A stretch of 32,074 nucleotides of DNA from Methyloligella sp. (GTDB lineage: Bacteria > Pseudomonadota > Alphaproteobacteria > Rhizobiales > HXMU1428-3). The stretch covers positions 1 to 32,074 of the forward strand of contig BQJJ01000019.1 of the NCBI GenBank assembly GCA_021604645.1. Reading direction: 5' to 3'. Positions 5,031 through 32,074 of the stretch are shown piece by piece. Position 1 is the stretch's first letter, and every line of letters starts with the position of its first letter. The notes beneath the pieces were generated by a model. It did no database searches, was not told the origin of the DNA, and saw nothing but the letters and a program-made list of their open reading frames with translations. The position numbers and the translations under genes were made by a program.

Positions 5031-5148
5031 CCGAAGAAGGAGCTCAGCCCTTTTCGGGCTGAGGGACATGGCAGCACCTGCTGCACGGCGCCTAGCGCCG
5101 CGCCCTCGCAGGCCTATGAGCTTCAGCACATAGAATAGCCGTGAGAGA
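5031..5148 (+). repeat. L repeat copy 1 (full)
   Basis: Full-length structured repeat: CCGAAGAAGG, hairpin H1 (CTCAGCCC/GGGCTGAG), GGACATGG, hairpin H2 (GCAGC/GCTGC), hairpin H3 (GGCGC-CTA-GCGCC), CCTCGCAGG, hairpin H4 (CTATG/CATAG), then AATAGCCGTGAGAGA. It lies between the 63-base ispG copy and intact ispG, just past the stop of ispG. No open reading frame and no T-tract follow it. Confidence 0.9.
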
Positions 5149-5162
5149 TAAAAACGTTACAC

Positions 5163-6380
5163 CTAGCCACCAAACCGTGTCTCAATATAATCCTGCACGA
5201 TCTCTTGAAACTCTTCAGCTATCCGCTCGCCGCGTAACGTCATCGCTTTTTTTCCGTCGATGAAAACAGGAGCAGCTGGGGTCTCACCTGTACCTGGTAA
5301 GCTAATGCCAATATCAGCATGCTTGGATTCGCCTGGTCCGTTAACAATACAGCCCATCACCGCAAAGTTAAGATTTTCAACGCCTGGATATTTAGTCTTC
5401 CAACTCGGCATACTAACGTTAATGTGGTTTTGAATATCTTGCGCCAGTTCCTGAAATACAGTGCTGGTTGTACGTCCACATCCCGGACATGCGGTCACAA
5501 CCGGCATAAAAGCGCGAAGCCCCATAGATTGTAAAATTTCTTGGCCCACTTGCACTTCTTTTGTTCGGTCTCCGCCAGGTTCTGGCGTCAGAGAAATACG
5601 GATCGTGTCACCAAACCCTTCTTGCAAAAGAATAGCAAGACCAGCGGTAGACGCCACTATACCCTTGGATCCCATACCAGCTTCAGTTAGTCCTAAATGC
5701 AATGCATTATTCGAGCGACTAGCAAGTAAACGATAAACCGCGATAAGGTCTTGAACCGCACTGACTTTGGCAGAGAGAATGATTTTTTCATTACTCATGC
5801 CAAGCTCGTTAGCTCGCTCAGTGCTCAAGAGAGCAGACTGGACAATCGCTTCATGCATCACATCACGCGCATCTTTGGGTTTATCAAGTTTGGCGTTTTC
5901 ATCCATGAGGCCTGTAAGCAGGTCTTGATCAAGTGAACCCCAGTTCACCCCAATGCGAACAGGTTTATCAAATTTCAAGGCCGTTTCAATCATCTGTGAA
6001 AATTGCGTATCTCTTTTTTTCTTGAAACCAACATTGCCCGGATTAATCCGGTATTTGGCAAGAGCTTCGGCCATTGCAGGGTGATCATTAAGAAGTGTGT
6101 GGCCAATATAATGAAAGTCTCCAACAAGAGGCACATCAATATTCATCTTTGCCAAATTATCACGAATATAAGGAACAGCTTTCGCCGCCTCTTCCCGGTC
6201 GACAGTAATGCGGACTAATTCAGATCCAGCGCGCGCAAGGGCAGCAACTTGTTCTGTGGTTTTTTCAATATCTGCTGTGTCAGTGTTGGTCATAGATTGA
6301 ACAACAATTGGCGCATCACCACCAATGTTAACAGAGCCAACAGTTACCGCAGTCGTCTGATGCCGAGATACGAGTGTCAC
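5163..6380 (-). CDS. ispG: 4-hydroxy-3-methylbut-2-enyl diphosphate synthase (flavodoxin)
   Basis: 405 aa, the usual alphaproteobacterial length. The enzyme is an iron-sulfur protein that reductively converts 2-C-methyl-erythritol 2,4-cyclodiphosphate to HMBPP, the penultimate step of the MEP isoprenoid pathway, in the cytosol. The N-terminal TIM-barrel part (about 1-265) holds [15 protein letters not shown], and the C-terminal part holds the 4Fe-4S cysteines C298 and C301 in ACPGCGR and C344 in [10 protein letters not shown], with E351 as the likely fourth ligand. The start is GTG (6378-6380) with AAAGG eight bases upstream. Its 3' end has been copied twice into the downstream DNA (3891-4138 and 4921-4983). 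Confidence 0.97.
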
Positions 6381-6492
6381 TAAGGAAACCTTTCACTTAA
6401 AATTCTGCCAGTTTCATATCAGATTTAATAGCACTTGCACATAAAATAGCGATGTATCTCTATTCAGTACTAATAGGATCTAAATCCGGTCC

Positions 6493-7272
6493 CTAACGTT
6501 TAACCAAACTAGTTAACAGAAAAAAGAAAGCCATGGAAACAACAATGGCGGGCCCAGTCGGTATATCAATATATAAAGAGGCCAATAATCCACAAATGAC
6601 CGAAAGACAAGATATAAGTCCTGTATAAATAACCATTTGCTCTGGGGTGCGAGAAATGCCCATAGCAGCGGCTGCTGGTATAATTAACATGGCGGTCACA
6701 AGCAGTAGGCCAACCAACTTCATTGAAAGGGCAATGGTCGCTGCAATCGCCAAAGAAAACAAAAAATCAACCCGGCCAACATGAACCCCTTCAGCAAGGG
6801 CAAGCTCACGATCTATGCTAAGCGCTAATAGGTCTTGCCAAAGCCAGGCAACGAGTCCCCAAATGGCCAGAATTCCGCCCGCAACCATGTAAAGGTCGAT
6901 ATTTGAAATAGCAAGAATGTCTCCAAATAATAAGCCCATTAAATCAACTTGCAGAGATTGAAATTGGCTTGTCACAATAAGTCCAAGTGCCAATACCACA
7001 TGCGCCAATAAACCAAGGGCTGTATCTTTCGCCAAATAAGTGGTGCGCTCAACGGCACGTAAACCAAAAGTAACCATCACTGCAGCAAGAAAAACACCCA
7101 CAGTTGGGTTGATTGACACAAGCAATCCAAACGCCACCCCAAGTAGTCCTGAATGTGCAATGGTTTCACCAAAATAAGCCATACGTTGCCAGACAACAAA
7201 ACACCCAAGCGGCGCAGCGATTAAGGCCATACCAAGACCACCAAGTGCCGCGCGTATTAAAAAATCATCCAT
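6493..7272 (-). CDS. znuB: Zinc ABC transporter permease
   Basis: 259 aa, almost wholly hydrophobic, with about seven or eight membrane helices. It belongs to the ABC-3 family of metal permeases (ZnuB/MntB/TroC). The N-terminus FLIRAALGGLGMALIAAPLGCFVVWQRMAYFG and the SGLLGVAFG, LSIDRELALAEGV and IIPAAAAMGIS blocks are characteristic. It forms the inner-membrane channel that ZnuC powers. The start lies 8 bases inside znuC, so the two are translationally coupled. Zn specificity is inferred from the adjacent Zur regulator and the His-rich ZnuC tail. The substrate-binding protein ZnuA is not in the window. Confidence 0.93.
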   Translation of the reverse strand: MDDFLIRAALGGLGMALIAAPLGCFVVWQRMAYFGETIAHSGLLGVAFGLLVSINPTVGVFLAAVMVTFGLRAVERTTYLAKDTALGLLAHVVLALGLIVTSQFQSLQVDLMGLLFGDILAISNIDLYMVAGGILAIWGLVAWLWQDLLALSIDRELALAEGVHVGRVDFLFSLAIAATIALSMKLVGLLLVTAMLIIPAAAAMGISRTPEQMVIYTGLISCLSVICGLLASLYIDIPTGPAIVVSMAFFFLLTSLVKR

Positions 7273-8197
7273 TGTTCTGATCGGTATCCCTTTTAGGCTT
7301 TGCGGTGTTAGTCTCTTCTTTAGGATCTAACTGTTTAGGATGTAAGTGTGCATCATCACAGTCATGACTATGACCTGTTACATGGCTATGTGAGCAATCA
7401 TGCCCAACCATATCTCCTGAAAGCGTATGACTATGGTCATGACTATGCGCATAAATACCATAAGTTTGCGCTCTTTCAGGTCCAAATAACCGTTCATATT
7501 CAGGATGATGGCTAATTTGTTCAGGAACGCCTGCGCAGCAAACATGACCATTTAAACAAAGTACTCGGTCACTTGAACCCATCACAATATGTAAATCGTG
7601 TGAGATAAGCAGGACAGCACAGCCAAAATTATTTCTGATATTTGAGATAAGATCATAAAGAGCTGCTTCACCAGCAAAATCCACGCCCTGCGCAGGTTCA
7701 TCCAAAACCAATAAATGAGGTTTATTCACAAGGGCGCGAGCTAGCAGCACACGCTGCATCTCACCCCCCGAAAGAGAGGACATTTGCGCATTGAGCAGAT
7801 GAGAAGATCCAACTTCATCAAGCACATTCATGAGATCTTCTTTTGAGACTTTCTGGCGAACAGTCAAAAAACGGCTGACAGTCAGAGGTAATGTACGATC
7901 AAGCTTAAGACGCTGTGGAACATAACCGATAGAAAGATTGCTTGCTCGTTTTAATTGTCCTTCATCAGCTTGAAGAACACCAAGACAAATACGAGCAAAC
8001 GTCGTTTTACCGCCCCCATTGGGGCCAATGAGGGTAACAATCTCACCAGCTGAAATTGAAAAATCTATGCCCCGTAAGATCCAGCGTCCATCTCTTTGAA
8101 ATCCAATTGAATTGGCTTCAATCAAAAAGGGAGTATGTGAAGAGGTTTGTGATTGTTTCAAAGTCGTCACGACTTTTTCTTCTGCAATCTCACTCAT
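7265..8197 (-). CDS. znuC: Zinc ABC transporter ATP-binding protein with His-rich C-terminal tail
   Basis: 310 aa. The ATPase core (about 25-235) has Walker A GPNGGGKTT (58-66), the signature LSGGEMQRV and Walker B LLVLDEPAQGVD, followed by the switch His in LISHDLH. It couples ATP hydrolysis to zinc import through ZnuB at the inner membrane. After about residue 249 there is a tail of roughly 60 residues with clusters such as HSHDHSH, HDCSHSH and HSHDCDDAHLH. This looks like a metal-binding extension that may collect or sense zinc. The tail ends in a charged linker that overlaps the znuB start by 8 bases. The 98-base gap after zur has no clear terminator, so co-transcription with zur is likely. 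Confidence 0.94.
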   Translation of the reverse strand: MSEIAEEKVVTTLKQSQTSSHTPFLIEANSIGFQRDGRWILRGIDFSISAGEIVTLIGPNGGGKTTFARICLGVLQADEGQLKRASNLSIGYVPQRLKLDRTLPLTVSRFLTVRQKVSKEDLMNVLDEVGSSHLLNAQMSSLSGGEMQRVLLARALVNKPHLLVLDEPAQGVDFAGEAALYDLISNIRNNFGCAVLLISHDLHIVMGSSDRVLCLNGHVCCAGVPEQISHHPEYERLFGPERAQTYGIYAHSHDHSHTLSGDMVGHDCSHSHVTGHSHDCDDAHLHPKQLDPKEETNTAKPKRDTDQNNG

Positions 8198-8295
8198 TAC
8201 TTAACTTTTCTCACTTTATGAATTTTGTATCAATTTTCTATTTTGATATAGGAAAGGCTTTTTAAATACGAAGCCGAATTTTCAACACTAACTCT

Positions 8296-8835
8296 TTAAG
8301 AAGAGTTTTGGCATGTATGGCATGTGCCTTTAATCTCTAGTTGACTACGATCAACTTTGAACATCTCGGAGTCTGCGACAGTTGAAATTAAAGCCCCAAT
8401 CGAAGCCCCTTCAACCTCACCAATAACACCGCACTCTTCACAAATAAGAAAAACAAGAGATGAAGCTTCAGAGCATTTATGCAAAGTAGATGGGCTCTCT
8501 TGATCAAATTCATCATCAAAATTACGTTGGCAGGCAAAATAAGAATTAGTGCTCTCCAAGCGATGAATGAGCCCTGCTTCTTGAAGAAAGTCCAAACTTC
8601 TATAAACAGAAATAGGGGCAAGCTTTTGCCCATCGGCTGCGAGGTTATCAAGAATTTGATAAGCGCCTATGGCTTTGTGGCTGGAGGCCACTTGCTCTAA
8701 AACGGTACGACGTAATTTAGTGAGTCTTAATCCTGCTTGTTGACAATAGCGATCAGCAAACTTCATCAAATTCGTTGTGCAACCGCTGTGGTCATGGTCG
8801 TGTTGTGGAAAAAGAGAGTGTGTCATACTGCGCAT
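8296..8835 (-). CDS. zur: Fur-family zinc uptake regulator
   Basis: 179 aa. The winged-helix part (about 25-110) has RLTKLRRTVLEQV and SVYRSLDFLQEAGLIHRLES, the usual Fur/Zur DNA-binding region. The C-terminal dimerisation part has two CxxC pairs (CEEC and CHTC) that form the structural zinc site, and FLICEECGV is the common Zur text. The N-terminus carries an extra His cluster (FPQHDHDHSGC). As a zinc-bound repressor it would shut off znuCB. The first ATG (8833-8835) and a second at 8824-8826 are both possible starts; neither has a strong ribosome binding site. A Zur-like palindrome lies immediately upstream, so zur-znuC-znuB is probably autoregulated. Confidence 0.92.
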   Translation of the reverse strand: MRSMTHSLFPQHDHDHSGCTTNLMKFADRYCQQAGLRLTKLRRTVLEQVASSHKAIGAYQILDNLAADGQKLAPISVYRSLDFLQEAGLIHRLESTNSYFACQRNFDDEFDQESPSTLHKCSEASSLVFLICEECGVIGEVEGASIGALISTVADSEMFKVDRSQLEIKGTCHTCQNSS

Positions 8836-8841
8836 CCAACT

Positions 8842-8860
8842 TTTGTTATATTATTCCATA
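8842..8860 (-). promoter_or_regulatory. Candidate Zur operator
   Basis: GTTATATTATTCC (8845-8857) matches 11 of 13 positions of the palindrome GTTATAWTATAAC, which is the core of known proteobacterial Zur boxes as I remember them. It sits directly before the zur start. Position and similarity suggest zinc-dependent autoregulation. Confidence 0.55.
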
Positions 8861-8892
8861 TAGCAGGTCTAAGCTAACAAGCCAAGTGTTAG

Positions 8893-8922
8893 GTGCCGAT
8901 GCAACGTGGGCATCTGAGGCAG
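8893..8922 (+). repeat. S repeat with L-type tail remnant
   Basis: Outer stem TGCC/GGCA and inner stem GATGC/GCATC with the GTGGGCA motif and CTGAGG. It is followed by AAAAAAGCAGTGAGAGAAAA (8927-8946), the end box seen after the S hairpins inside L copies 5, 7 and 10. This copy therefore looks like the 3' half of an L element without its 5' half. Confidence 0.7.
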
Positions 8923-8965
8923 AAACAAAAAAGCAGTGAGAGAAAACAAATAACAATCTAACTTA

Positions 8966-9078
8966 CCGAAGAAGGAGTGACGCTACTTTAGCGTCAGGAC
9001 ATGGCAAGCTCGCTTGCCCGGTGCCTAGCACCGCCCCTCGGAGGCCTGCAGCTTCAGCTGCAGAATAGCCGTGAGAGA
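8966..9078 (+). repeat. L repeat copy 2 (full)
   Basis: Full copy with CCGAAGAAGGAG, H1 TGACGCTA/TAGCGTCA, GGACATGG, H2 GGCAAG/CTTGCC, H3 GGTGC-CTA-GCACC, CCCCTCGGAGG, H4 CTGCAGC/GCTGCAG and AATAGCCGTGAGAGA. All stems are perfect. It lies between the divergent zur and macrodomain genes. Confidence 0.92.
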
Positions 9079-9083
9079 AACAA

Positions 9084-9112
9084 AGCGGATGCGTAGTGGG
9101 CATCTGAAGCAT
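9084..9112 (+). repeat. S repeat
   Basis: AGCGGATGC, then GTAGTGGGCATCTGAAGCA: the inner stem is GATGC/GCATC with the conserved GTGGGCA and CTGAAGC. It follows L copy 2 by six bases and is followed by an A-rich stretch and TAGCCCG, a shortened end box. It lies about 85 bases upstream of the macrodomain gene start, in its leader or promoter region. Confidence 0.75.
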
Positions 9113-9196
9113 AACAAAAAAGAGAAAATAGCCCGATAGCCTCGAATCATATATTTTCTGCTCAAAGTTTAAGTCACAGTTGTGAAGGGTATAATT

Positions 9197-9724
9197 ATGC
9201 CATCAAGAATAGAAATCAGAGAAATTGACATATCCAGCTTAAGCGTTGATGCAATCGTTAATGGTGCCCACCCAACTCTCATGCCTGCAACAACTGAAGA
9301 ACAAACTCTCCACGCATTAGCAGGTCCCAAATTAGTTGAAGAATGCAAACATGTTGCCCCCTGCCCCGTTGGAGAGGCGCGTATCACAAGAGGCTATAAC
9401 TTGCTTGCCAACTTCGTTATCCATACAGCGGGGCCAGCCTGGGGGGGCGGAGAGGCAGATGAAGATGTCTATTTAAGACAATGCTATAAAAATGCATTTG
9501 AAATTGGTAAATCATTCAACATTAAAACCATCGCTTTTCCAAGCATTTCAACAGGCCAAAATGGCTTTCCCCCTCAAAGAGCGGCCTTTGTCGCTATGCA
9601 AGAAATCTTGTTATATCTTGAAGCTCATCCCGACTTTAAAAGTGTGGTTTTGGCCTGTAAATCTGAAAAAGAAGTCTGGGAATATGAATCTGCTTTTGAT
9701 AGGTGCAGCAGCAAGAGCGCGTAA
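9197..9724 (+). CDS. Macrodomain protein, YmdB/MacroD-like, with altered catalytic loop
   Basis: 175 aa from the ATG at 9197, chosen because GAAGGG lies eight bases upstream; a GTG at 9182 would add five residues. The whole protein is one macrodomain: VDAIVNGAHPTLM, HTAGPAW, and FPSISTGQNGFP near the ADP-ribose-binding phosphate loop align with E. coli YmdB. Typical members remove ADP-ribose or O-acetyl groups. Here the catalytic Asn of NAAN is His (NGAH), the GGGG loop reads PATT, and the catalytic Asp position is Glu in TTEEQT, so ordinary hydrolase activity may be changed or lost while ligand binding could remain. The gene precedes the RimK fusion by 36 bases on the same strand and may share its transcript. 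Confidence 0.85.
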   Translation: MPSRIEIREIDISSLSVDAIVNGAHPTLMPATTEEQTLHALAGPKLVEECKHVAPCPVGEARITRGYNLLANFVIHTAGPAWGGGEADEDVYLRQCYKNAFEIGKSFNIKTIAFPSISTGQNGFPPQRAAFVAMQEILLYLEAHPDFKSVVLACKSEKEVWEYESAFDRCSSKSA

Positions 9725-9760
9725 ATACAGATTTTAAAATAGACATGCCATGCATTTAAT

Positions 9761-11206
9761 ATGGGAATATCAAATATCATGGAAAAAAAGAACCAATCAG
9801 AAACAGTTAGTATCGCTTCAATCAGCGTTGGTTGGCGCGAATGGGTAAAACTTCCCAAATTAGGTTTGGGCGCTATTCACGCAAAAATTGATACAGGGGC
9901 CAAAACTTCTGCATTACATGCCATAGATATTGAAACCTTTGGTCCGATTGATAGGCCAAAGGTGCGGTTTGGTGTAAAACCCATTGATGGCAATGAAGAT
10001 CTGGTTATTTATTGCACGGCACCAATTATAGATCGCAGATATGTCACAAGCTCAAATGGAGAAAGTGAATTTCGCACGATCATACAAACGGATTTAGCTA
10101 TTGGTGGTGAAAGTTGGCCAATTGAAGTATCTCTGACAAATCGTGAAAATTTAATGCATCGCATGTTAATCGGCCGCGAGGCTATGGATGCAGCACAACT
10201 GGTTGTTGAGCCGAGCGAAGACTACTTATTAGAAAAATTATCGTTCGATATTTATAAAAATGTAAAAACTCAAAGCCCCGTCTCGCGTGCTCTTCGTATT
10301 GGCCTGCTAACAATGGAGCCAGACAATTTTTCCAATCAGCAATTTATCAGAGCTGCAGAAGAAAAAGACCACGTTATTGAAACCATCCAAACTACCTCAT
10401 GCTACATGAACATCAATTCACTCACAGCAGGGCTTCATTATAACGGTCAACAATTACCAAGGTTTGATGCGATAATTCCTCGCATTGGGGCCCAGATCAC
10501 CTCGTACGGCACTTCAATTGTTAGACAATTTGATATGACAGGCGCCCTTTGTCTTAATTCAGCAGATTCGATTTACAGGTCGAGAGATAAATTATTAGCT
10601 CATCAGGTGATGGCGCGTCATGGCTTGCCAATGCCCATAACAGCTTTTGCAAGTTCACCAAAAAACACTGAAGATTTAATCAAGCTGGTGAATGGCGCCC
10701 CACTCGTTGTTAAGCTTTTAAAAAGTACGCAAGGTAAAGGAGTTGTTCTGGCTGAAACAAAAAAGGCGGCCGAATCGGTCATTGATGCCTTTAGAGGGAT
10801 TGATGCAGACTTTTTAGTGCAGGAATTTATCGCCGAATCAGAAGGGTCTGACATCCGCTGTCTTGTTTTAGGGAATAAAGTCATCGCTACAATGCGCCGT
10901 TCAGCCGAGCCCGGAGAGTTTCGTGCCAACATTCATCAGGGCGGATCTGCTGAGAAAGTTAAAATCACTAAAGAAGAACGTCAAATCGCGGTGAAAGCAG
11001 CTAAAGCCTTTGGATTAAGCTTGGCAGGTGTTGATATCTTGCGCTCAAATAAGGGACCATTACTGTTAGAAGTGAACTCATCACCTGGATTAAAAGGCAT
11101 CGCAAAGGTCAATGACAAAGATCTGGCCGAAGAGATAATCAGCTATATTGAAAAGAAATTATTCATGCCCAAAAGAAGAAATTTGAAACCTAAGCCAAAA
11201 CCATAG
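9761..11206 (+). CDS. Retropepsin-like (RimB/Zn_protease) domain fused to RimK-type ATP-grasp glutamate ligase
   Basis: 481 aa with two domains. The first (about 22-165) is the retropepsin-like domain annotated as ATP-dependent zinc protease, with VGWREWVKLP and KIDTGAKTSAL; the Asp at residue 44 is the expected catalytic residue. The second (about 176-475) closely resembles E. coli RimK: CYMNIN, FDAIIPRIG, RDKLLAHQ, GAPLVVKLLKSTQGKGVVLAET, LVQEFI, SDIRCLV, GVDILR and LLLEVNSSPGLKGI, the ATP-grasp Mg/ATP residues. RimK adds glutamates to the C-terminus of ribosomal protein S6 in E. coli. In a fusion the protease domain may trim the same tails. The start is uncertain (ATG at 9761 or 9779; neither has a clear ribosome binding site). 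Confidence 0.9.
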   Translation: MGISNIMEKKNQSETVSIASISVGWREWVKLPKLGLGAIHAKIDTGAKTSALHAIDIETFGPIDRPKVRFGVKPIDGNEDLVIYCTAPIIDRRYVTSSNGESEFRTIIQTDLAIGGESWPIEVSLTNRENLMHRMLIGREAMDAAQLVVEPSEDYLLEKLSFDIYKNVKTQSPVSRALRIGLLTMEPDNFSNQQFIRAAEEKDHVIETIQTTSCYMNINSLTAGLHYNGQQLPRFDAIIPRIGAQITSYGTSIVRQFDMTGALCLNSADSIYRSRDKLLAHQVMARHGLPMPITAFASSPKNTEDLIKLVNGAPLVVKLLKSTQGKGVVLAETKKAAESVIDAFRGIDADFLVQEFIAESEGSDIRCLVLGNKVIATMRRSAEPGEFRANIHQGGSAEKVKITKEERQIAVKAAKAFGLSLAGVDILRSNKGPLLLEVNSSPGLKGIAKVNDKDLAEEIISYIEKKLFMPKRRNLKPKPKP

Positions 11207-11346
11207 CCTTAAATTTCCTTTAATTTCAGACAAAATTTAAAACAAAATAATTGGAAAAATCTACCTATCTGACCAACTTGGTAACTCCATATTAATATCG
11301 CACAGGCAATGTTGAGATTGGTTTTATATAGTTTCGGATAGTAAAT

Positions 11347-13331: not shown

Positions 13332-13391
13332 CGAAGAAAGAGCATCGCCCTCTTCGGGTAATGGAACATGGCGCCAGTGCTTCATGTGCAT
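13332..13391 (+). repeat. L repeat copy 3 (5' part only, decayed)
   Basis: CGAAGAAAGAG, an imperfect H1 (ATCGCCC/GGGTAAT), GGAACATGGCGCCAG, and then divergence at TTCATGTGCATAAAA. H3, H4 and the end box are missing. It begins 20 bases after the stop of the 654-aa gene. Confidence 0.75.
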
Positions 13392-13493
13392 AAAAAGTAT
13401 AGCTGACACGTTTTTAATTGGTTTAAAATTTGATCTTGTCATAATTCCGAATAACGATAATTCACTAAAAATTCGAATTAGAGGTATATTTTT

Positions 13494-13769
13494 GTGTCTG
13501 ATGAAATCCAAATCAAACAATTGGAAACACATTCTAAAGGTGGGTTGAAGGTAGTAATAACGCACCTGCTAAAAAACCCCTATAATAGATTTATGGGCTT
13601 CTATATTGATAGTGATGGTAAAAATCATAGTGGCATGTGGCAAGATAATGGAATGAAATGCAATGGGACTGGCAACCTTGATATTGATGTCAATAATCCT
13701 GAGATAATTCGCATAGTTGAAGATGCTAGTATTTTATGGGAATCGGAAGGATATGAACCTGAAAATTAA
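13494..13769 (+). CDS. Hypothetical 91-aa protein
   Basis: A GTG start at 13494 has GAGG eight bases upstream (13481-13484), a good ribosome binding site. The product is small, acidic and soluble (MSDEIQIKQLETHSKGG..., ending ILWESEGYEPEN) with no signal peptide or membrane segment. Patterns of short beta-strand-like segments (KVVITHLL, MGFYIDSDGK, NLDIDVNN) and few Cys suggest a compact beta-rich fold. No family is recognised. It stands between the 654-aa and 1221-aa genes, flanked on both sides by L repeats, so it may be part of that locus or a passenger. Confidence 0.6.
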   Translation: MSDEIQIKQLETHSKGGLKVVITHLLKNPYNRFMGFYIDSDGKNHSGMWQDNGMKCNGTGNLDIDVNNPEIIRIVEDASILWESEGYEPEN

Positions 13770-13784
13770 GCTAAAATAATCTAT

Positions 13785-13904
13785 CCGAAGAAGGAGTGAG
13801 GCCCCTTCGGCCTCAGGACATGGCGTAGCGCCAGCGCAGCCCGGCGCAAGCGCCGCCCCTCGGAGGCCCAAGCGCGTTTAAGCGCTTGGAATAGCCGTGA
13901 GAGA
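13785..13904 (+). repeat. L repeat copy 4 (full)
   Basis: CCGAAGAAGGAG, H1 TGAGGCC/GGCCTCA, GGACATGGCG, an H2 region with GGCG and CGCC pieces, H3 GGCGC-AAG-CGCC, CCCCTCGGAGG, H4 CCAAGCGC/GCGCTTGG and AATAGCCGTGAGAGA. H1 differs from copy 2 on both sides of the stem, preserving pairing. It lies between the 91-aa and 1221-aa genes. Confidence 0.92.
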
Positions 13905-17634: not shown

Positions 17635-17688
17635 AGTAGGTTGCGTTTATTTGAATTGAGATAGCATAGCCTTTTTAGGTTACATAAC

Positions 17689-17818
17689 GAAGAAGGGAGT
17701 GTTCTACTTCAGAGCACGGACATGACGCCATAGGCGTCCAGCGCCTAGCGCTGCACCTCGTAGTGCGGTTGCTATGTGGGCAACTGAAGCACCAGGAAAG
17801 CCACAGCCCGTGAGAGAG
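17689..17818 (+). repeat. L repeat copy 5 (with embedded S hairpin)
   Basis: CGAAGAAGGGAG, H1 GTGTTCT/AGAGCAC (one mismatch), GGACATGACGCC, H2 GACGCC-ATA-GGCGTC, H3 AGCGC-CTA-GCGCT and CACCTCGTAG. The H4 position is occupied by an S hairpin (17762-17793), and the end box reads GCCCGTGAGAGAGA. It lies between the 1221-aa and 825-aa genes. Confidence 0.9.
17762..17793 (+). repeat. S repeat inside L copy 5
   Basis: Outer stem GTGC/GCAC, inner stem GTTGC/GCAAC, conserved GTGGGCA and CTGAAGC. It replaces hairpin H4 of the host L element. Confidence 0.8.
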
Positions 17819-21791: not shown

Positions 21792-21966
21792 CGAAGAATG
21801 AGCTCAGCTTATTTTAGGCTGAGTGACATGACGAAGCGGCAGCGTAGCCCGGCGCACAAGATCAGCCCGAACGGAGCGAAGCGAGTACGGATAAGCTGAT
21901 CGCAAAAAATGCACCGCCCCTCGGAGGCCTATGAGCTTCAGCTTATAGAATAGCCGTGAGAGAGAG
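21792..21966 (+). repeat. L repeat copy 6 (with nested insert)
   Basis: CGAAGAATGAG, H1 CTCAGC/GCTGAG, TGACATGACG, then GGCGC, an insert of about 50 bases, GCACC, CCCCTCGGAGG, H4 CTATGAGC/GCTTATAG and AATAGCCGTGAGAGA. The insert (21856-21910) sits exactly where the CTA loop of H3 lies in other copies, and is bounded by GATCAG/CTGATC. Confidence 0.9.
21860..21901 (+). repeat. Nested hairpin insert in L copy 6
   Basis: GATCAG (21860-21865) pairs with CTGATC (21896-21901) around CCCGAACGGAGCGAAGCGAG and TACGGATAAG. A close relative with the same boundaries is inserted at the same place in L copy 10 (31300-31342), and the opening CACAAGATCAG recurs at 4984. Confidence 0.75.
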
Positions 21967-23501: not shown

Positions 23502-23596
23502 CGAAGAAGGAGTGACGCCACTTCGGCGTCAGGACATGGTGCAGCGACAGTGTAGTTTGTCATCTGAAGTATAAAAAAGCCATTGCCCGTGAGAGA
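23502..23596 (+). repeat. L repeat copy 7 (short form)
   Basis: CGAAGAAGGAG, H1 TGACGCC/GGCGTCA, GGACATGG, then directly a truncated S hairpin (TAGTTTGTCATCTGAAGTA) and the end box AAAAAGCCATTGCCCGTGAG. H2, H3 and the CCTCGGAGG box are absent, so the element can lose its middle and keep both ends. Confidence 0.88.
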
Positions 23597-23617: not shown

Positions 23618-23770
23618 CGAAGAAGGAGTATTGCCCTCTTCGGGCAATAGGACATGACGCCAGAGGCGTCCGGTGCCTAGCGCCGCACAGTGCGGTTGCA
23701 TGTGGGCAACTGAAGCACACTAAAATGTAGGCTCAAACGCTCAGCGTTTGAAATAGCCGTGAGAGAGAGA
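23618..23770 (+). repeat. L repeat copy 8 (with both S and H4)
   Basis: CGAAGAAGGAG, H1 ATTGCCC/GGGCAAT, GGACATGACGCC, H2 GACGCC-AGA-GGCGTC, H3 GGTGC-CTA-GCGCC (one G-T pair), an S hairpin (23690-23718), H4 CAAACGCT/AGCGTTTG, and AATAGCCGTGAGAGA. It follows copy 7 by 21 bases. Confidence 0.9.
23690..23718 (+). repeat. S repeat inside L copy 8
   Basis: Outer stem GTGC/GCAC, inner stem GTTGC/GCAAC, conserved GTGGGCA and CTGAAGC. Here the host element also keeps H4, so S and H4 can coexist. Confidence 0.8.
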
Positions 23771-23771
23771 A

Positions 23772-23792: not shown

Positions 23793-23900
23793 GATAATTC
23801 ACACATCTATTATTTCCGCTATCTTCTAAATTCAAATCATCAACAGCGCGGGGCAATAAAGCAAAGCGCAAACGAGATAAAAATTTAAACAGAAAAACAA

Positions 23901-23981
23901 GTTCAGTCTGAGCGGAGTTTAGCGCGGATGCTTTGTGGGCATCTGAAGCGCGAGAAGAGAGCGAGCACAGATAAACTGAAC
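23901..23981 (+). repeat. 81-base imperfect hairpin enclosing an S repeat, leader of the cationic protein gene
   Basis: GTTCAGT (23901-23907) pairs with ACTGAAC (23975-23981). Between them is an S hairpin at 23922-23951 with outer stem GCGC/GCGC, inner stem GATGC/GCATC, GTGGGCA and CTGAAGC. It ends nine bases before the GGAG ribosome binding site of the 88-aa gene and is likely in its mRNA leader. Confidence 0.6.
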
Positions 23982-24001
23982 GTCAAAATCGGAGATTTAA
24001 A

Positions 24002-24268: not shown

Positions 24269-24297
24269 GATCTAAAGAACGAAGAGAATAAGAAACA

Positions 24298-24328
24298 AAA
24301 AACCGGTCCCGAAAGAGACCGGTTTTTT
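24298..24328 (+). terminator. Rho-independent terminator after the cationic protein gene
   Basis: AACCGGTC (24301-24308) pairs with GACCGGTT (24317-24324); flanking A and T runs extend the stem and give the T-tract ending at 24328. Confidence 0.9.
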
Positions 24329-24358
24329 ATTATGTCTGATATTATTGAGCTAGCCACA

Positions 24359-24476
24359 AGAAGAAGGAGTGACGCCTTTTCGGCGTCAGGACATGGCGAA
24401 GCGTCAGCGTAGCCCGGTGCCTAGCACCGCCCTTCGGAGGCCCAAGCGCCATAAGCGCTTGGAATAGCCGTGAGAG
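24359..24476 (+). repeat. L repeat copy 9 (full)
   Basis: AAGAAGAAGGAG, H1 TGACGCC/GGCGTCA, GGACATGGCG, a weak H2 region, H3 GGTGC-CTA-GCACC, CCCTTCGGAGG, H4 CCAAGCGC/GCGCTTGG and AATAGCCGTGAGAG. It lies between the terminator and the dnaJ stop. The 5' box lacks the usual CG. Confidence 0.92.
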
Positions 24477-24495
24477 TGTAATTAAGAGAAAAAAC

Positions 24496-25656: not shown

Positions 25657-25790
25657 TTAGCTTTGCCTCTAATTAACTCTCTAATCAGCTCTTCATATCG
25701 AATGAAGAAATAGTACGAATAGAAAAAGTAATCTTATATGTACAAAAATTTGCTCAAGAGAATTCAACCATTGGTTAGAACCCTCTGAAA

Positions 25791-25825
25791 ATAAAAAGAG
25801 TTCCGCCGGAATTTTCCGGCGGAAC
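25791..25825 (-). terminator. Terminator between dnaK and dnaJ
   Basis: GTTCCGCCGGAA (25800-25811) and TTCCGGCGGAAC (25814-25825) form a 12-bp stem, followed on the minus strand by TCTTTTTAT. It ends the dnaK transcript or lowers read-through into dnaJ. Confidence 0.88.
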
Positions 25826-25846
25826 ATGATTTAAAGAAAAAATCAG

Positions 25847-27781
25847 TTAAGCAGATTTTTTATCTTCCTTATCATCATCTTTCACTTCTTCAAAATCAGC
25901 ATCAACGATGTCATCATCTGTTTGGTTACCAGCATCGGCACTTGGATCATAACCTTCGTCAGCATCTTCATCTGGGTTCGCATCTTTATACATGGCTTCA
26001 CCAAGTTTCATAGCTGCTTGTGCCAGAGCTTCAGATTTTGTGTTGATGGCATCTAAGTCATCACCTTCAACAGCAGCTTTAAGCTCTTCTAAAGCAATAC
26101 CGATGGTTTCTTTATCTTCTTCGCCGACCTTTTCAGCAAATTCCTCTAAGCTTTTCTCTGTAGAGTGAATTCGTGCTTCAGCCTGATTCTTCGCGTCAAC
26201 AAGTTCGGCGCGTTTGCGGTCATCCTCAGCGTGAGATTCAGCGTCTTTAACCATCTGGTCAATATCAGCGTCTGATAGACCACCAGAAGCTTGAATGCGA
26301 ATAGAGTGCTCTTTACCAGTCGCTTTATCTTGAGCCGCAACATTTACAAGACCGTTAGCGTCAATATCAAATGTCACTTCAATCTGAGGCATGCCACTTG
26401 GTGCTGGTGGAATTCCAACGAGGTTAAACTGACCAAGCAGTTTATTATCCATCGCCATTTCACGCTCACCTTGGAAAACCCGGATTGTAACAGCATCCTG
26501 ATTGTCTTCAGCAGTTGAGAAGATTTGGCTTTTCTTGGTTGGAATGGTTGTATTGCGATCGATCAAACGTGTAAAGCGTCCACCTTTGGTTTCAATACCA
26601 AGTGAAAGAGGCGTTACGTCAAGAAGAAGAACATCCTTCACATCACCTTGAAGAACACCGCCCTGAATAGCAGCACCCATAGCAACAACTTCATCAGGGT
26701 TCACGCCTTTATTAGGCTCTTTACCGAAGAATTTTTTTACAGTCTCGGTAATTTTCGGCATTCGCGTCATGCCACCAACAAGAACAATCTCATCAATGTC
26801 ACCAGCCTTAAGACCAGCATCTTTCAGAGCATTTTCCATTGGAGCGATCGTGCGTTTGACTAAATCTTCAACCAACGTTTCAAGCTTAGACCGTGTTAAC
26901 TTCATAGTCAGGTGTTTAGGGCCTGATTGGTCAGCAGTAATAAACGGTAAGTTGATCTCTGTTTGTGTAGCAGAAGAAAGTTCAATTTTAGCTTTTTCAG
27001 CTGCTTCTTTCAGGCGTTGTAATGCAAGTTTGTCACTACGAAGGTCAATTGAGTTTTCTTTTTTAAACTCATCGGCCAAATAGTCTACAAGGCGCATATC
27101 AAAGTCTTCACCACCAAGGAATGTATCACCATTGGTAGATTTCACTTCAAAAACACCATCGCCAATCTCAAGGATTGAAACGTCAAAAGTACCACCGCCA
27201 AGGTCATAAACAGCGATTGTAGCGCCTTCATTACGATCCAGACCGTAAGCTAAAGCGGCAGCAGTTGGTTCGTTGATAATACGAAGAACTTCAAGACCAG
27301 CAATTTTACCAGCGTCTTTTGTCGCTTGGCGCTGGGCATCATTAAAGTAAGCAGGAACGGTGATCACGGCTTGAGTGACATCAGAGCCAAGATAACTCTC
27401 AGCTGTTTCTTTCATTTTTTGCAAGATAAAAGCTGAAACTTGCGAAGGAGAATATTGTTTCCCCTGAGCTTCAACCCAAGCATCACCATTGTCTGCTTTG
27501 ATGATGTCATATGGGACAAGCTTTTGGTCTTTTTTCACGGTTGGATCATCAAACCGACGACCGATAAGACGCTTAATCGCAAATAGCGTATTTTCAGGGT
27601 TAGTCACAGCCTGGCGTTTTGCCGGCAGACCAACCAAGCGTTCATCATCATCGGTAAACGCGACCATAGATGGCGTTGTACGCACGCCCTCTGCATTTTC
27701 AATTACTTTTGGAGCAGAACCATCCATAACAGATACACAACTGTTGGTGGTCCCTAAATCAATTCCGATAACTTTCGACAT
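25847..27781 (-). CDS. dnaK: Chaperone DnaK (Hsp70)
   Basis: 644 aa from the ATG at 27779-27781, giving the canonical N-terminus [16 protein letters not shown]. An upstream in-frame ATG at 27796 would add MKAEE, but the bases encoding those residues (GCAGAGGAA) look like the ribosome binding site of the shorter form. The nucleotide-binding domain has [24 protein letters not shown] and VGGMTRMP; the substrate-binding domain begins about residue 390 after [14 protein letters not shown]; and the acidic tail ends in [18 protein letters not shown]. It folds and refolds cytosolic proteins with DnaJ and GrpE. A 200-base leader separates it from a consensus heat-shock promoter. Confidence 0.98.
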
Positions 27782-27988
27782 TTCCTCTGCCTTCATATTT
27801 TATAACAAACCGAAAAGAAGCTATAAACCAGCCCTTTACCCTTAAATGCAGCCCTTAAATTATGGAATTAAGGCGCAGGAGCAAACCAGTGGTCAATCCT
27901 TCGAAACGCGGTTTCTTAAAATTTGCTATTCCGCATCATTAAGCTTCACAAGCATCTTTTGCTTAAATAGCAGTGCCTGATAGCTTGT

Positions 27989-28017
27989 ATATAGGTAGCT
28001 AGCCTAAGTACGACAAG
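27989..28017 (-). promoter_or_regulatory. Candidate RpoH (sigma-32) promoter of dnaK
   Basis: On the minus strand CTTG, 18 bases, then CCTATAT. This matches every defined position of the alphaproteobacterial RpoH consensus CTTG-N17-18-CYTATNT as I recall it. Transcription would start near 27982, giving a leader of about 200 bases before dnaK. Confidence 0.75.
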
Positions 28018-28362
28018 TATTTGTTACTGAAAATTGTGAGTAAAAATTGGCCAAACACATATCGGTCAGCTGGCTTAAAACCCGAATGACAAGGAAATAA
28101 GCAAATTTATGCGATCTGACAAGTGGGAAATGAACACCTGTAAGCATCAATTTTCGTTTGATATGTAATGAAAGCGATAAATTTTTCTGAACCGGAATTT
28201 ATTAAAATGAATTAAAAACTACTTAAAGATATTAAAAACAATGACTTAGAATTGAACAATCGTTATTCCTCCACCGCATAAAAATTAGAATTTAATTAAC
28301 TTTGGGCAATTACATTATCTACTAGAGATGTAAATCTATAAGATGATTTAAGGGTTCCAATT
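28018..28362. other. Intergenic region between divergent dnaK and chemotaxis receptor genes
   Basis: This AT-rich stretch has no open frame with a ribosome binding site and no L or S repeat, which is unusual for a gap of this size in this window. It must hold the promoter of the receptor gene, but I cannot pick a convincing one; AAGGG lies eight bases before its ATG. Confidence 0.4.
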
Positions 28363-29847
28363 ATGTTCACACTTTCAAGCTCAAATAATGATATTCAAGC
28401 CAAACTAGACGCTTTAGATAGATCTCAGGCTGTTATTGAGTTTGAAACGGACGGTACGATCATCACAGCCAACAAGAATTTTTGTGGCGCAATCGGCTAT
28501 TCACTGGATGAAATCAAGGGCAAACATCACTCTATGTTTGTAGATCCAGAGGAAGCAAATGGTGCCGAATATCGTAATTTCTGGTCAAGCCTTGCGGCTG
28601 GTGAATTTAAATCAGCAGAATTCAAGCGCGTAGCTAAAGGGGGCCGCGAAATCTGGATACAGGCCTCTTATAACCCTATTTTAGATAAAAACGGCAAAGC
28701 CTACAAAGTAGTTAAATTTGCGACTGACATCACAGACAAGAAATTGGAATATGCCGGTTTACTTGGTCGGGTAAATGCAATTAGTCGGTCTCAAGCGGTT
28801 ATTGAGTTTGACCTCGCTGGCAACATTCAAAATGCAAACGAGAATTTCTTAGGTGCTGTAGGCTATTCATTAGATGAAATCAAAGGTAAGCATCACCGTA
28901 TGTTTATGGATCCAGAAGAAGCTAATTCAGCTGCTTATCAGCAATTTTGGGATGCGCTCGCTCTCGGCGAATTCCAAGCTGGTGAATATAAGCGTCTTGG
29001 CAAAGGCGGCAACGAAATTTGGATCCAAGCCAGTTACAATCCGATTATGGATATGAATGGAAACCCATACAAAGTAGTCAAGTTTGCAATAGATAGAACG
29101 CAAGCTATTCAAGATCGTTTGCGCCGTGAAGAGGCGCAAAAAGAAATTAATACTGGCATCACAGAAATCAGAGATGCAGTAATGAACGCAAGTTCGCAAG
29201 CAACAGAAGCGGCCTCTGCCTCAGGCCAAACATCTCAAAATGTACAAGCTGTAGCGGGTGGACTTGAGGAGCTAGCTTCTTCAGTTCAAGAAATTAATCA
29301 GCAAGTGACTAATGCATTGGAAATTTCAATGCAAGCTGTGTCTCAAGCAGATAATACCAATACAATTATTTCAGGCCTGGCAACAGCAGCTCAGAAAATC
29401 GGCGATGTTGTGAGCCTCATTTCTGAAATTGCAGAGCAAACTAATCTTCTTGCGCTGAACGCAACAATCGAATCAGCAAGAGCTGGTGAAGCAGGTAAAG
29501 GTTTTGCAGTTGTGGCATCTGAAGTGAAGTCACTAGCTGGTCAAACAGCAAACGCGACGGAAGAAATTAGTAATCAGATTGCCATGGTGCAATCAACCAC
29601 AGAAGAAGCTGTAACAGCAATTCAAACAATTACTGAGACCATCGGTAAGATTAATGAGATTTCTTCAATCATCTCAGCCGCGGTTGAAGAGCAATCAGCT
29701 GTAACAGGTAACATGTCAGCAAATATGCAAACAGCAGCAGATGGTGTGAACGAGATTTCAAGTGGTGTAAACGAAATAGCCCAAGCAACAGAAATGGTTG
29801 ATGTGGCCACTCAGCGGGTACAAGAAAGCTCAGCTGCTCTAGGTTAG
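28363..29847 (+). CDS. Soluble methyl-accepting chemotaxis protein with tandem PAS domains
   Basis: 494 aa, no membrane segments, so cytoplasmic. Two PAS domains (about 10-125 and 132-247) are near duplicates: both carry SRSQAVIEF or [38 protein letters not shown] and YKVVKFA. The C-terminal signalling domain (about 258-494) has the conserved hairpin tip [34 protein letters not shown] (about 355-388) that contacts CheA and CheW. The PAS pair probably senses redox state, a small ligand or a bound cofactor. The pentapeptide for CheR/CheB tethering is absent. It is a single gene with its own terminator. Confidence 0.93.
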
Positions 29848-29892
29848 AAATAACTTTGAGAAGGTCTGACAGCATCTCAAATGTCAGAAATT

Positions 29893-29939
29893 AAAAAACC
29901 ACCGCTTCTAGTGAAAACTGAAAAGCGGTGGTTTTTTTA
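29893..29939 (+). terminator. Rho-independent terminator after the chemotaxis receptor gene
   Basis: AAAAACCACCGCTT pairs with AAGCGGTGGTTTTT across a loop of about 15 bases and ends in a run of T to 29938. Confidence 0.9.
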
Positions 29940-30103
29940 TGCTTTACAAGTCTAAACAATCGAGTATTTAAAAATTGTGGCAGCTGATTGATCATCTGAC
30001 TATCATTCAATCTCTGGTCGTGTCACAAGATTGTCAATTTAAACGGGTAGAAACCTCTAAGCGTTCCTGTTGATTTAACAACGGTTGTTTTTTCGGATGC
30101 CTC
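29940..30103. other. Intergenic region before the OlsB-like gene
   Basis: No gene is visible. A short hairpin AACAA/TTGTT followed by TTTTTT (30077-30093) has weak terminator form. The two S repeats that follow take up most of the rest of the space to the acyltransferase gene. Confidence 0.35.
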
Positions 30104-30130
30104 GCCGGTTGCTAGTGGGCATTTGAAGTG
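30104..30130 (+). repeat. S repeat
   Basis: GCCGGTTGC, then TAGTGGGCATTTGAAGTG. The inner stem is slightly imperfect (GGTTGC/GCATTT). It is five bases before a second S copy. Confidence 0.65.
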
Positions 30131-30134
30131 CAGT

Positions 30135-30164
30135 GTACGGATGCTTAGTGGGCATCTGAAGTAC
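30135..30164 (+). repeat. S repeat
   Basis: Outer stem GTAC/GTAC, inner stem GATGC/GCATC, conserved GTGGGCA and CTGAAG. The GTAC outer pair is a compensatory change from the GCGC and GTGC pairs in other copies. It is 34 bases before the acyltransferase start, so likely in that leader. Confidence 0.8.
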
Positions 30165-30198
30165 AAAAAAGATACAAATAGCAACAAAGGCAATTACC

Positions 30199-31221
30199 AT
30201 GGTTTTTAAAAATAAGTTAGAGGCCGAAACAAGCCAGCAATCAAAAAGTCAATTCACAAAACTTGGTGCATTATCAAAACATTATTTAAACGGTATCACA
30301 CATATGGCCAACGATCATAAAGCCATCGGCGCTGCGCATCATCAGCCAATTACGTCGCGCTTATTAAAAAAAAGAAAGCAACAAAAGAGCTACGGTCACA
30401 TGGGCTGTCTCGAAGTTAGATTGGCTGCCCGTAAAAAAGAAATAAAAAAAGCTCAAAGGTTACGTTACAAAGTTTTTTACAAAGAAATGTCTGCCATCCC
30501 AGATATGCAAACCAAAATGAAGCGTAGAGACATCGATGTCTATGATAAGATTTGCGACCATCTTCTGGTGCTTGATCATGAATATAACAGTAAAAGTTAT
30601 CCCTTTGCCTCTAAGTCAAAAATTGTAGCTACCTATCGCATTTTGACGGAAGAAATGGCAAAATTATCTGGTGGATTTTATTCACAAAGCGAATTTGATA
30701 TTGCCCCTCTGCTGGAGCGCCATAGTTCAACTCATAAGTTTTTAGAACTCGGCCGTTCATGCGTGATGAAGCCTTACAGAAGCAAACGCTCAGTTGAACT
30801 TTTATGGCGCGGCTTATGGGCTTATATTCAGGAAAATCAAGCAAACGCTATTATCGGATGTGCGAGTTTAGAAGGTGTCGACCCACAAGCTCATGCCTTA
30901 GCATTAAGCTTCTTGCATCATCATGCTTCGGCTCCTGAGGAGTGGAGAGTGAAGGCTCACAACTCTCGTTATGTAAATATGAATCTAATGCCAAAAGAAG
31001 AGATTGATATGAAGGCAGCGTTAAAAGCTCTGCCACCATTGATCAAAGGTTATCTTCGTCTGGGAGCATATATCGGTGAAGGCGCTGTAATTGATCATCA
31101 ATTCGGCACAACAGATGTGATGATAATATTGCCAACTGAAAATATCAGCGATCGCTACATCAATCACTTCAGTGCCCCGGAAGAAAAGAACACAAACCTC
31201 TCAGGCACTTATTTGAACTAA
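30199..31221 (+). CDS. GNAT-fold acyl-ACP N-acyltransferase, OlsB/hemolysin-like
   Basis: 340 aa. The region about 70-240 fits the PF13444 family (OlsB, ornithine-acyl-ACP N-acyltransferase; older name hemolysin-like): LEVRLAARKKEIKKAQRLRYKVFYKEM, DHLLVLDH, IVATYRIL, FYSQSEFDI and FLELGRSCVMKPYRS are its hallmarks. Such enzymes transfer a 3-hydroxyacyl chain from ACP to ornithine (or a related amine) to make lyso-ornithine lipid at the inner membrane. The N-terminal 60 residues are basic and extra relative to OlsB. No olsA-like gene is adjacent, so the substrate is not certain. AAAGG lies eight bases before the ATG. Confidence 0.85.
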   Translation: MVFKNKLEAETSQQSKSQFTKLGALSKHYLNGITHMANDHKAIGAAHHQPITSRLLKKRKQQKSYGHMGCLEVRLAARKKEIKKAQRLRYKVFYKEMSAIPDMQTKMKRRDIDVYDKICDHLLVLDHEYNSKSYPFASKSKIVATYRILTEEMAKLSGGFYSQSEFDIAPLLERHSSTHKFLELGRSCVMKPYRSKRSVELLWRGLWAYIQENQANAIIGCASLEGVDPQAHALALSFLHHHASAPEEWRVKAHNSRYVNMNLMPKEEIDMKAALKALPPLIKGYLRLGAYIGEGAVIDHQFGTTDVMIILPTENISDRYINHFSAPEEKNTNLSGTYLN

Positions 31222-31299
31222 GCGTAGTTGTTTCATGCAGATGCTTGTGAATTCGTGCCGAAGGAGATGGCGCAATGGTGGTGTCTCCGCAGCGCACCA

Positions 31300-31342
31300 G
31301 ATCAGCCCGAAAGGAGCGGATCGAGTACGGAGTAAGCTGATC
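31300..31342 (+). repeat. Nested hairpin insert in L copy 10
   Basis: GATCAG/CTGATC ends around CCCGAAAGGAGCGGATCGAG and TACGGAGTAAG. It is similar to the insert at 21860-21901 in L copy 6 and at the same position of the host element. Confidence 0.75.
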
Positions 31343-31381
31343 AAAAAAAACACCGCCCCTCGGAGGGCCCGCTGCTGAAGT

Positions 31382-31411
31382 AGCGCGGTTGCTAGTAGGC
31401 AACCTAAAGCG
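31382..31411 (+). repeat. S repeat inside L copy 10
   Basis: Outer stem GCGC/GCGC, inner stem GGTTGC/GCAACC, with TAGTAGGCA in place of the usual GTGGGCA and CTAAAGC. Confidence 0.75.
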
Positions 31412-31451
31412 CCACTAAAAAAGCAATTGCCCGTGAGAGAAAGAAAAAAAA

Positions 31452-31676
31452 TTAAGCTGCCTTCGCAGTTTTAGAACTTCCAGACGCACAATTCGAATAG
31501 GCTATAATATCGATCGCACATTGCCAGTTAGGATGGCTCAGTGTTTGTTGAACGCCATAAGTGCGCAAGGCGTCTTTAGGAGTTCCGCCTTTTCTAAATA
31601 CGTCAGCGCAAATTGACCGCGCCATAGATAAAGCAAGTTCCCATTCAATTGGATTAACATAATCAGGACGTGACAT
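31452..31676 (-). CDS. Hypothetical 74-aa protein
   Basis: 74 aa with AGAGGAA a few bases before the ATG at 31676, a strong ribosome binding site. The protein (MSRPDYVNPIEWELALSMAR..., then PKDALRTYGV and WQCAIDIIAYSNCA) is soluble, mostly helical in appearance, with three Cys, one near the N-terminal third and two near the end. No family is recognised. It is a lone leftward gene between L repeats. Confidence 0.6.
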   Translation of the reverse strand: MSRPDYVNPIEWELALSMARSICADVFRKGGTPKDALRTYGVQQTLSHPNWQCAIDIIAYSNCASGSSKTAKAA

Positions 31677-31693
31677 ACTCTATTCCTCTTCTG

Positions 31694-31720
31694 TCAAGCT
31701 TATCGTTAGATAGAGCTTGA
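31694..31720 (-). promoter_or_regulatory. Hairpin in the leader of the 74-aa gene
   Basis: TCAAGCTTATC and GATAGAGCTTGA pair with one bulge around GTTA. It lies about 18 bases upstream of the start on the minus strand, before the ribosome binding site, and may be a leader structure or operator. Nothing else is visible up to the repeat at 31852. Confidence 0.4.
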
Positions 31721-31851
31721 GCTCCAAATATGTTTAAAAAGTGCAAGTTTAAAAAGTTATCCTCAGTTAAGTGCTGTTCGTAAATTGACACCAATTTTTC
31801 GTTTGACCTCAGAGCTTTAATGAGGTGGCAGCAAAAATAAAAACTAGTATT

Positions 31852-31963
31852 ACGAAAAGGGAGTGACGCTCTTTCGGCGTCAGGAAATGACGCTATAGGC
31901 GTCCGGCACCTAGTGCCGCCCAGCGGAGGGCCCGCTGTGAAACCAGCGGAATAGCCCGTGAGT
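31852..31963 (+). repeat. L repeat copy 11 (full)
   Basis: ACGAAAAGGGAG, H1 TGACGC/GCGTCA, GGAAATGACGC, H2 GACGC-TATAG-GCGTC, H3 GGCAC-CTA-GTGCC, GCCCAGCGGAGGGC, H4 CCGCTG/CAGCGG and AATAGCCCGTGAG. It is the first of a tandem pair. Confidence 0.9.
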
Positions 31964-31968
31964 AATAA

Positions 31969-32074
31969 AAAAAGGAGTGACGCCCTTTCGGCGTCAGGAC
32001 ATGACGCCATGGGCGTCCGGCACCTAGTGCCGCCCAGCGGAGGGCCCGCTGCGAAACCAGCGGAATAGCCCGTG
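31969..32074 (+). repeat. L repeat copy 12 (cut by window edge)
   Basis: AAAAGGAG, H1 TGACGCC/GGCGTCA, GGACATGACGCC, H2 GACGCC-ATG-GGCGTC, H3 GGCAC-CTA-GTGCC, H4 CCGCTG/CAGCGG and AATAGCCCGTG at the last base of the window. It is nearly identical to copy 11 and follows it by about five bases, in direct orientation. Confidence 0.9.

Follow-up and report, generated by a model that had tools for sequence, protein, structure and literature searches.

A folded, multi-hairpin dispersed element of Methyloligella whose orientation tracks replication-linked skew

The window analysed here is a whole stretch of 32,074 nucleotides (nt), contig C19 (BQJJ01000019.1) of a Methyloligella sp. genome of 3.57 Mb in 27 contigs (GCA_021604645.1, hereafter G000). 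Besides genes, it carries repeated copies of an element, named L, which an earlier note, made from the letters of this stretch, had described as an unmatched dispersed element with conserved boxes and covarying hairpins. The order that it gave, CGAAGAAGGAG-H1-GGACATG-H2-H3-CCTCGGAGG-H4-AATAGCCGTGAGAGA, was confirmed in the window. When up to 3 mismatches are allowed, the 3' box AATAGCCGTGAGAGA has 9 matches where 0.71 would be expected; the 5' box, with at most 2, has 17 where 8.1 would be. For either box, no such number was attained in 100 shuffles. A covariance model, R1, was built from 42 intact copies of G000 and has 11 matches in this stretch. All of them are on the + strand, though the genes run both ways; dnaK and dnaJ lie on the strand opposite L. 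With a 3' half recognised by eye, these make up the twelve copies, some of them partial, that had been counted before. Regions of relatives were compared with stretches of G000 and, in the window, with 4.9-24.8 kb, and are cited below where they hold the same site; M and N are two other hairpin elements, described later.

5032..5148, +: full-length L (R1 114.1 bits); G002 has a same-site copy with changed stems.
8967..9078, +: full-length L (R1 113 bits); degenerate copy at the G002 site, G003 site without L.
13332..13393, +: 5' half of L (R1 22.1 bits); G006 lacks the stretch 13332-13904.
13786..13904, +: full-length L (R1 115.9 bits); same-site copies in G002, G003 and G001, none in G006.
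17688..17817, +: L with an M element in its P4-H4 part (R1 68.2 bits; repeat family D5).
21792..21963, +: L with N nested in the H3 loop, N at about 21852-21918 (R1 94.3 bits); N also in G002, while G003 and G006 have L without N.
23502..23596, +: internally shortened L (R1 37.9 bits).
23618..23766, +: L with M nested before H4 (R1 103.5 bits).
24359..24477, +: full-length L with an unusual 3' flank, GTGTAATT, common to G002 and G003 (R1 119.1 bits; alignment).
31353..31440, +: 3' half of L with M in the H4 loop and an N-like sequence upstream at 31292-31331 (by reading; repeat families D13-D15; outside the R1 matches).
31853..31965, +: L of the CCAGCGGAGGGC subtype (R1 90.9 bits).
31967..32074, +: L of the CCAGCGGAGGGC subtype, in tandem to the copy at 31853 and ending at the contig end (R1 84.6 bits).

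Parts of the end of ispG and of the sequence downstream of it are repeated within 3875-5477 (3875-3976, 4900-5001 and 5151-5252; 4044-4154 and 5367-5477), and the L copy at 5032 sits between two of these related stretches of about 100 nt.

The unit extends beyond the boxes originally noted, with A-rich stretches at both ends. On the 5' side, an A-rich stretch and roughly CTANCTATA precede CGAAGAAGGAG, with CTANCTATA placed before CGAAG (77 own flanks and 95 from other genomes); on the 3' side, about 7-10 nt of A-rich sequence follow GTGAGAGA (89 own and 136 other flanks). Counting the A-rich ends, L is about 145 nt long. As to the statement that no copy codes for protein or has terminal inverted repeats, open frames of at least 100 codons overlap, by more than 30%, four of 65 sampled own copies, including that at 31853-31965, which is no evidence of genes, and no terminal inverted repeats were seen by reading, no dedicated search having been made.

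L is not confined to the window. The 3' box, with up to one mismatch, matches G000 149 times, as compared to 0 for the reversed control, and R1 gives at least 150 matches there and at least 150 in G002. R1 matches (E <=0.001) are found in 25 of 61 genomes of the order, G000 included, comprising all eight of the genus; two further L-rich genomes, G018 with 59 matches and G032 with 35, belong to two other families. A pattern scan of named genomes returned at least 77 stretches, mostly from metagenome-assembled genomes of Hyphomicrobiales, and also from Rhodomicrobium sp. DHS20C08 and Cohaesibacter sp. Searches for a known family agreed with the absence of a match reported earlier. Rfam gave none at the gathering score over the whole window, and blastn of one L copy with its flanks found none among plasmid and phage records. 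In the papers searched, which left out most subscription journals, no oriented multi-hairpin element is described, and three L motif strings were also unmatched. Two weak Rubella_3 rows, from a lax Rfam search of one copy (E <=5), and two leader rows in locus L089, from a search of three loci (E <=0.5), fell below the gathering score and were rejected. The element is real, folded and dispersed, and no description of it was found in the literature searched.

The fold was analyzed on two sets of sequences. The first (A2) contains the 42 intact own copies, and its structure has 30 pairs in six helices, H1, H2, H3, P4, P5 and H4: 96.0% of the cells pair, and two-sided change is seen in 21 of the 30 pairs. 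Its covariation score of 0.515 compares with 0.158 for shuffled and at most 0.069 for slid alignments, the slid control favouring this structure because it was derived from the same sequences. The second (A4) holds copies from other genomes, which took no part in model building (150 of 173 matches, giving 147 distinct rows); since the model made this alignment, it leans towards the structure. Here 94.3% of the cells pair, two-sided change affects 29 of the 30 pairs, and the score is 0.486, as compared to 0.130 and at most 0.049 for the same controls. H1, H3 and H4 covary in the way noted earlier. H2 is also a real hairpin, heterogeneous, with three classes by reading of the alignment. Two stems had been overlooked: P4, a 2-bp stem (C-G or A-T) with a triloop within the CCTCGGAGG box, and P5, a stem GGC/GCC or GGGC/GCCC enclosing H4. 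A subtype in which CCAGCGGAGGGC replaces CCTCGGAGGC (window 31853-32074; minus-strand copies near 1954 in locus L041 and near 9469 in L045) often ends, by eye, in GAGT and not in GTGAGAGA, and its P4 loop and tail look as if they changed together.

The earlier note took compensatory change to imply that the fold is selected. The covariation itself is strong, also in the copies from other genomes, but selection is not settled by it, as the two arms of a stem may also be matched by templated (quasipalindrome) correction or by conversion between copies, either of which can cause paired change. Several L stems differ as whole blocks. Among the sites shared with relatives, some retain L with replaced, still paired stems. 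At the 24359 site, G003 has kept the odd 3' flank, which argues for common descent of the two copies, with an H4 that is different yet paired; the H4 stems of loci L120 and L050, which represent one site, are set apart by three compensated pairs. That the fold is selected is likely, short of proof.

Mismatched pairs within the stems were also counted. In own copies, G.T pairs are more numerous than A.C pairs: a third, model-aligned set (A3) has 112 against 68 in 100 rows, and A2 has 26 against 14. In A4, the best 100 rows have 50 against 28, and all 147 rows have 88 against 85. The excess in own copies runs counter to the skew, which would favour G-to-A on the L strand, and fits folding of that strand; it is taken as a hint only, because the rows are related and both A3 and A4 are model-aligned. 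Folding both strands as DNA and as RNA gave no answer as to which strand folds.

The main feature of L, which the earlier note had missed, is its orientation. Among the copies listed, 146 of 150 in G000, 147 of 150 in G002 (counted by eye), 49 of 52 in G004 and all 35 in G032, which belongs to another family (30 of 30 on contigs with at least two copies), lie on the majority strand of their contig, for a total of 377 out of 387 in four genomes of two families. Of the ten minority copies, nine (all but C3:43157) have a copy in the opposite orientation at most 400 nt away, which is what local inverted duplication, rather than independent insertion, would lead one to expect. In G003, G006 and G007, the local majority, counted on fetched loci with at least two copies (G001 was counted likewise, G005 remaining outside the count), comprises 42 of 42, 30 of 31 and 6 of 7 copies; the minority copy of G006 again has an opposite copy within 400 nt.

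The strand so preferred was compared with base composition, using the mean third-position GC skew over the genes of both strands, with L strands taken from R1 matches and some of the means made by eye. The majority L strand is the C-rich one in 36 of the 37 stretches holding L: 20 of the 21 from G000, all 9 from G004 and all 7 from G032. With plain AT skew, the same 20 stretches of G000 agree, while plain GC skew does not separate the strands in several own contigs. The leading strand is usually G-rich; since the L strand is C-rich, it is assigned to the lagging-type side. The orientation of L tracks replication-linked skew. It does not follow genes. The gene contexts were sampled on 65 of 72 R1 copies from 21 sources, after exclusion of seven weak or end copies. 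Of these 65, 61 are intergenic, and the 57 with both neighbours in view fall into 18 co-directional, 18 opposite, 17 convergent and 4 divergent contexts. Transcription does not explain the orientation, given the even split of the tandem contexts.

Longer L copies hold the elements M and N, nested insertions that the earlier note had also missed. M has a core GGTTGC-loop-GGGCAAC, a covarying outer stem (0.76 Watson-Crick in 42 copies, against a shuffle maximum of 0.577) and an A-rich tail; N has the form AGATCAG...CTGAT and, by eye, an A-rich tail as well. In the model's alignment, each of the 80 inserts of at least 28 nt falls within one of five apical loops, and none in the joints (44 in 102 distinct rows of A3 and 36 in the 147 rows of A4, copies too broken for the model being excluded). 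Among the first 100 of 234 places with M, 96 have it on the strand of L. At 23893-23985 of the window, an N-like hairpin (GTTCAGT...ACTGAAC) seems, by eye, to enclose an M-like hairpin (GCGGATGC...GGGCATCTGAAGCGC), another case of nesting.

Presence and absence of L differ between relatives. Sites without L were found at own C5 near 86.6 kb (own locus L044, as compared with L117 and L171) and in L123 as compared with own L051, besides those of G003 at 8967 and of G006 at 13786, where the block 13332-13904 is missing. In own L051, a possible 14-bp direct duplication surrounds the insert; it is not clear at other sites. Retention is extensive: G002 has L at all seven sites compared, within aligned blocks that are 81-89% identical, and G003 retains it at five of the six sites covered by its contigs. 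No R1 match was found in the compared region of G004 and G007.

With moderate confidence, we regard L as a non-autonomous, intergenic, multi-hairpin mobile element. New copies would be inserted into the chromosome at replication forks, as single strands and with a single orientation. The conserved L strand would thereby come to lie on the side of lagging-type skew and its complement would be the lagging-strand template; the enzyme would act in trans and belong neither to the recognisable Y1/RAYT transposases nor to the RVT_1 reverse transcriptases. Once inserted, copies are retained for long times, their stems remain paired by compensated change, and their loops take up further hairpin elements (M and N).

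Several observations weigh against this explanation. Beyond the 150 copies listed, there are more in the minority orientation: one, near 201.4 kb on own C4, is isolated, and two, near 87.0 kb on own C15 and near 183.6 kb on C7 of G002, adjoin opposite copies. G001 has 32 of 37 copies on the local majority strand, the other five adjoining an opposite copy, and G007 has an isolated minority copy (L132:4680). In G018, the contig majority strand holds only 40 of 59 copies, and for 35 of the 59 a copy in the other orientation lies at most 400 nt away; this genome shows inverted pairs and no bias. The isolated copy C3:43157, the single one in own stretch L224, opposes the skew, and the mean third-position value (GC3) is within 0.03 of zero in three own stretches and one of G032; moreover, the direction of replication is read from base skew. 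Insertion sites suggest no single target rule, one having the possible 14-bp duplication, one an A run and one neither. Many copies are old and shared by site, including all seven compared in G002, and no case is therefore made for present mobility. Finally, searches with the Y1_Tnp and RVT_1 models identified no inserting enzyme.

Inverted L pairs about 115 nt apart are frequent in G018 and in loci L146, L160 and L169 (Cohaesibacter sp.); five such pairs occur in G001.

The strong orientation in two families would also be expected if L were a polar DNA signal, read at the fork and kept for a chromosome function, with wrong-way copies selected against. KOPS (FtsK-orienting polar sequences), Chi and single-strand initiation sites are comparison cases for signals of this kind. 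The conservation of structure and boxes and the keeping of same-site copies across species while spacers diverge are in line with such a role. Density, however, is uneven: of the 150 listed copies, C6 (206 kb) carries 20 and C14 (94 kb) carries 12, whereas C7 (203 kb) and C8 (197 kb) have 3 apiece. The lack of matches in the compared region of G004 and G007 also argues against a signal, and so does M, a different hairpin that shares the orientation bias. We consider a polar signal unlikely, though it is the strongest of the competing explanations.

A search for enzymes, made with one Pfam model each, such that divergent enzymes could escape, bears on the two explanations that follow. Y1_Tnp (E <=0.001) was found in none of the seven other members of the genus, all of which bear L, and in two genes of G000, with frames of 224 and 225 amino acids, situated within C1:1-20000, a stretch in which no L or M was found; the ends of these genes were examined by motif scan only. 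RVT_1 has no match in G000, one each in G004 and G006, and none in the other five members; G002, with its large L population, matches neither model. By reading, the two Y1_Tnp genes (loci L032 and L033, C1:11499-15370) lie among short frames resembling a polymorphic-toxin locus.

These results make it rather improbable that L is a REP/REPIN-type element, moved on single-stranded DNA by a RAYT (TnpA-REP) transposase. Such a nature would agree with the hairpins, the intergenic sites, the tandem pairs, the inverted pairs of G018 and some of G001, and with the presence of two Y1_Tnp genes in G000; compensatory changes are also described for REPINs (PMC3116915). On the other hand, the seven other L-bearing members have no Y1_Tnp match, the two own genes are not near L or M, and L is not a single tagged hairpin.

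Of much the same low probability is a retroposed or RNA-primed origin of L, M and N, similar to that of short interspersed nuclear elements (SINEs), in which a structured RNA with a 3' A-rich tail would prime at the lagging-strand template and then be copied into DNA. The A-rich tails that follow L and M on the L strand, and N by eye, could be read in this way, as could the possible 14-bp target duplication, the lagging-type position of the L strand and the G.T excess in the 100 rows of own copies, which fits folding of that strand. The latter disappears on the full set from other genomes, and no RVT_1 match is available in G000 or in five of the seven other members, L-rich G002 among them. 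Half copies (a single 5' half and some four 3' parts, as counted by eye) are too few to show 5' truncation. The copying of RNA might be done by DNA polymerase I. That the copies are genes or leaders of a cis-regulatory or trans-acting RNA family is very improbable and was set aside: conserved single-stranded boxes and covarying stems would suit it, but gene orientation is random in tandem contexts (18 with, 18 against), only 4 of 57 gaps are divergent, the copies strongly follow replication skew, and Rfam has no match.

Returning to insertion at forks, a broader and more tentative possibility is that L, M and N together form a class of oriented hairpin inserts that spread on the lagging side without Y1 or a recognisable reverse transcriptase. 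They might do so by an enzyme or through the machinery of replication, in which an A-tailed hairpin strand would act as a primer or be ligated like an Okazaki fragment, with the loops of one another as landing sites.

As to known systems, L resembles REPs and REPINs (bacterial interspersed mosaic elements, BIMEs) in being a small, many-copy, intergenic hairpin repeat with tandem or mosaic arrays and compensated hairpins; REPINs show compensatory hairpin changes and tandem arrays running forward on one side of the genome and in reverse on the other (PMC3116915). It differs in its approximately six helices, their fixed asymmetric order and the strong replication orientation, as well as in the scarcity of inverted pairs in the genus outside G001 (few in G000, G002 and G004, some in G001; in the other families, none in G032 and many in G018) and in the seven L-bearing members without Y1_Tnp. 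REPs carry GTAG/CGTC tags (PMC3733652) and often stand in inverted pairs; the anatomy of L, by reading and with no scan for tags, is not that of a single tagged hairpin. Many H3 loops hold CTAG.

For IS200/IS605 elements (IS608, ISDra2) and their non-autonomous derivatives, two papers describe an orientation linked to replication, as for Tn7 with TnsE (PMC5371812), and, for HUH transposases, the use of single strands and hairpins (PMC6006769). L shares the replication-following orientation, in the four genomes and in 36 of the 37 stretches counted above, and not in G018. It differs in that seven of the eight genus members have no Y1_Tnp, and in that structure fills the whole of L, whereas in IS200/IS605 it is found at the ends. 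A retroelement would need an available reverse transcriptase, and RVT_1 is absent from G000, with one match in each of only two of the seven other members.

The RIME, Sm-repeats and A, B and C palindromes of rhizobia, within the same order, are intergenic and have conserved sequence and fold (PMC2573895), as L has. A single S. meliloti record, CP090106.1 (3.72 Mb long, though labelled pSymB), in which the known repeats were not located, was searched with R1 under stricter filters and gave no match. The small dispersed repeats of Nostoc, too, are very small mobile repeats lying within other repeats.

The earlier interpretation is therefore kept in part: L is a dispersed, covarying element without a known match, to which orientation, nested insertions and two further stems are now added. 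Biases in orientation with replication were known for Tn7 and IS200/IS605; here one is found for a non-coding element, in nearly all copies listed from four genomes of two families, without the enzymes that account for such biases in other cases. L may be viewed as a natural record of fork insertion, which raises the question of what activity inserts it, and its loop-only nesting, together with stems that stay paired at shared sites, offers a test of selection versus templated correction in DNA hairpins.

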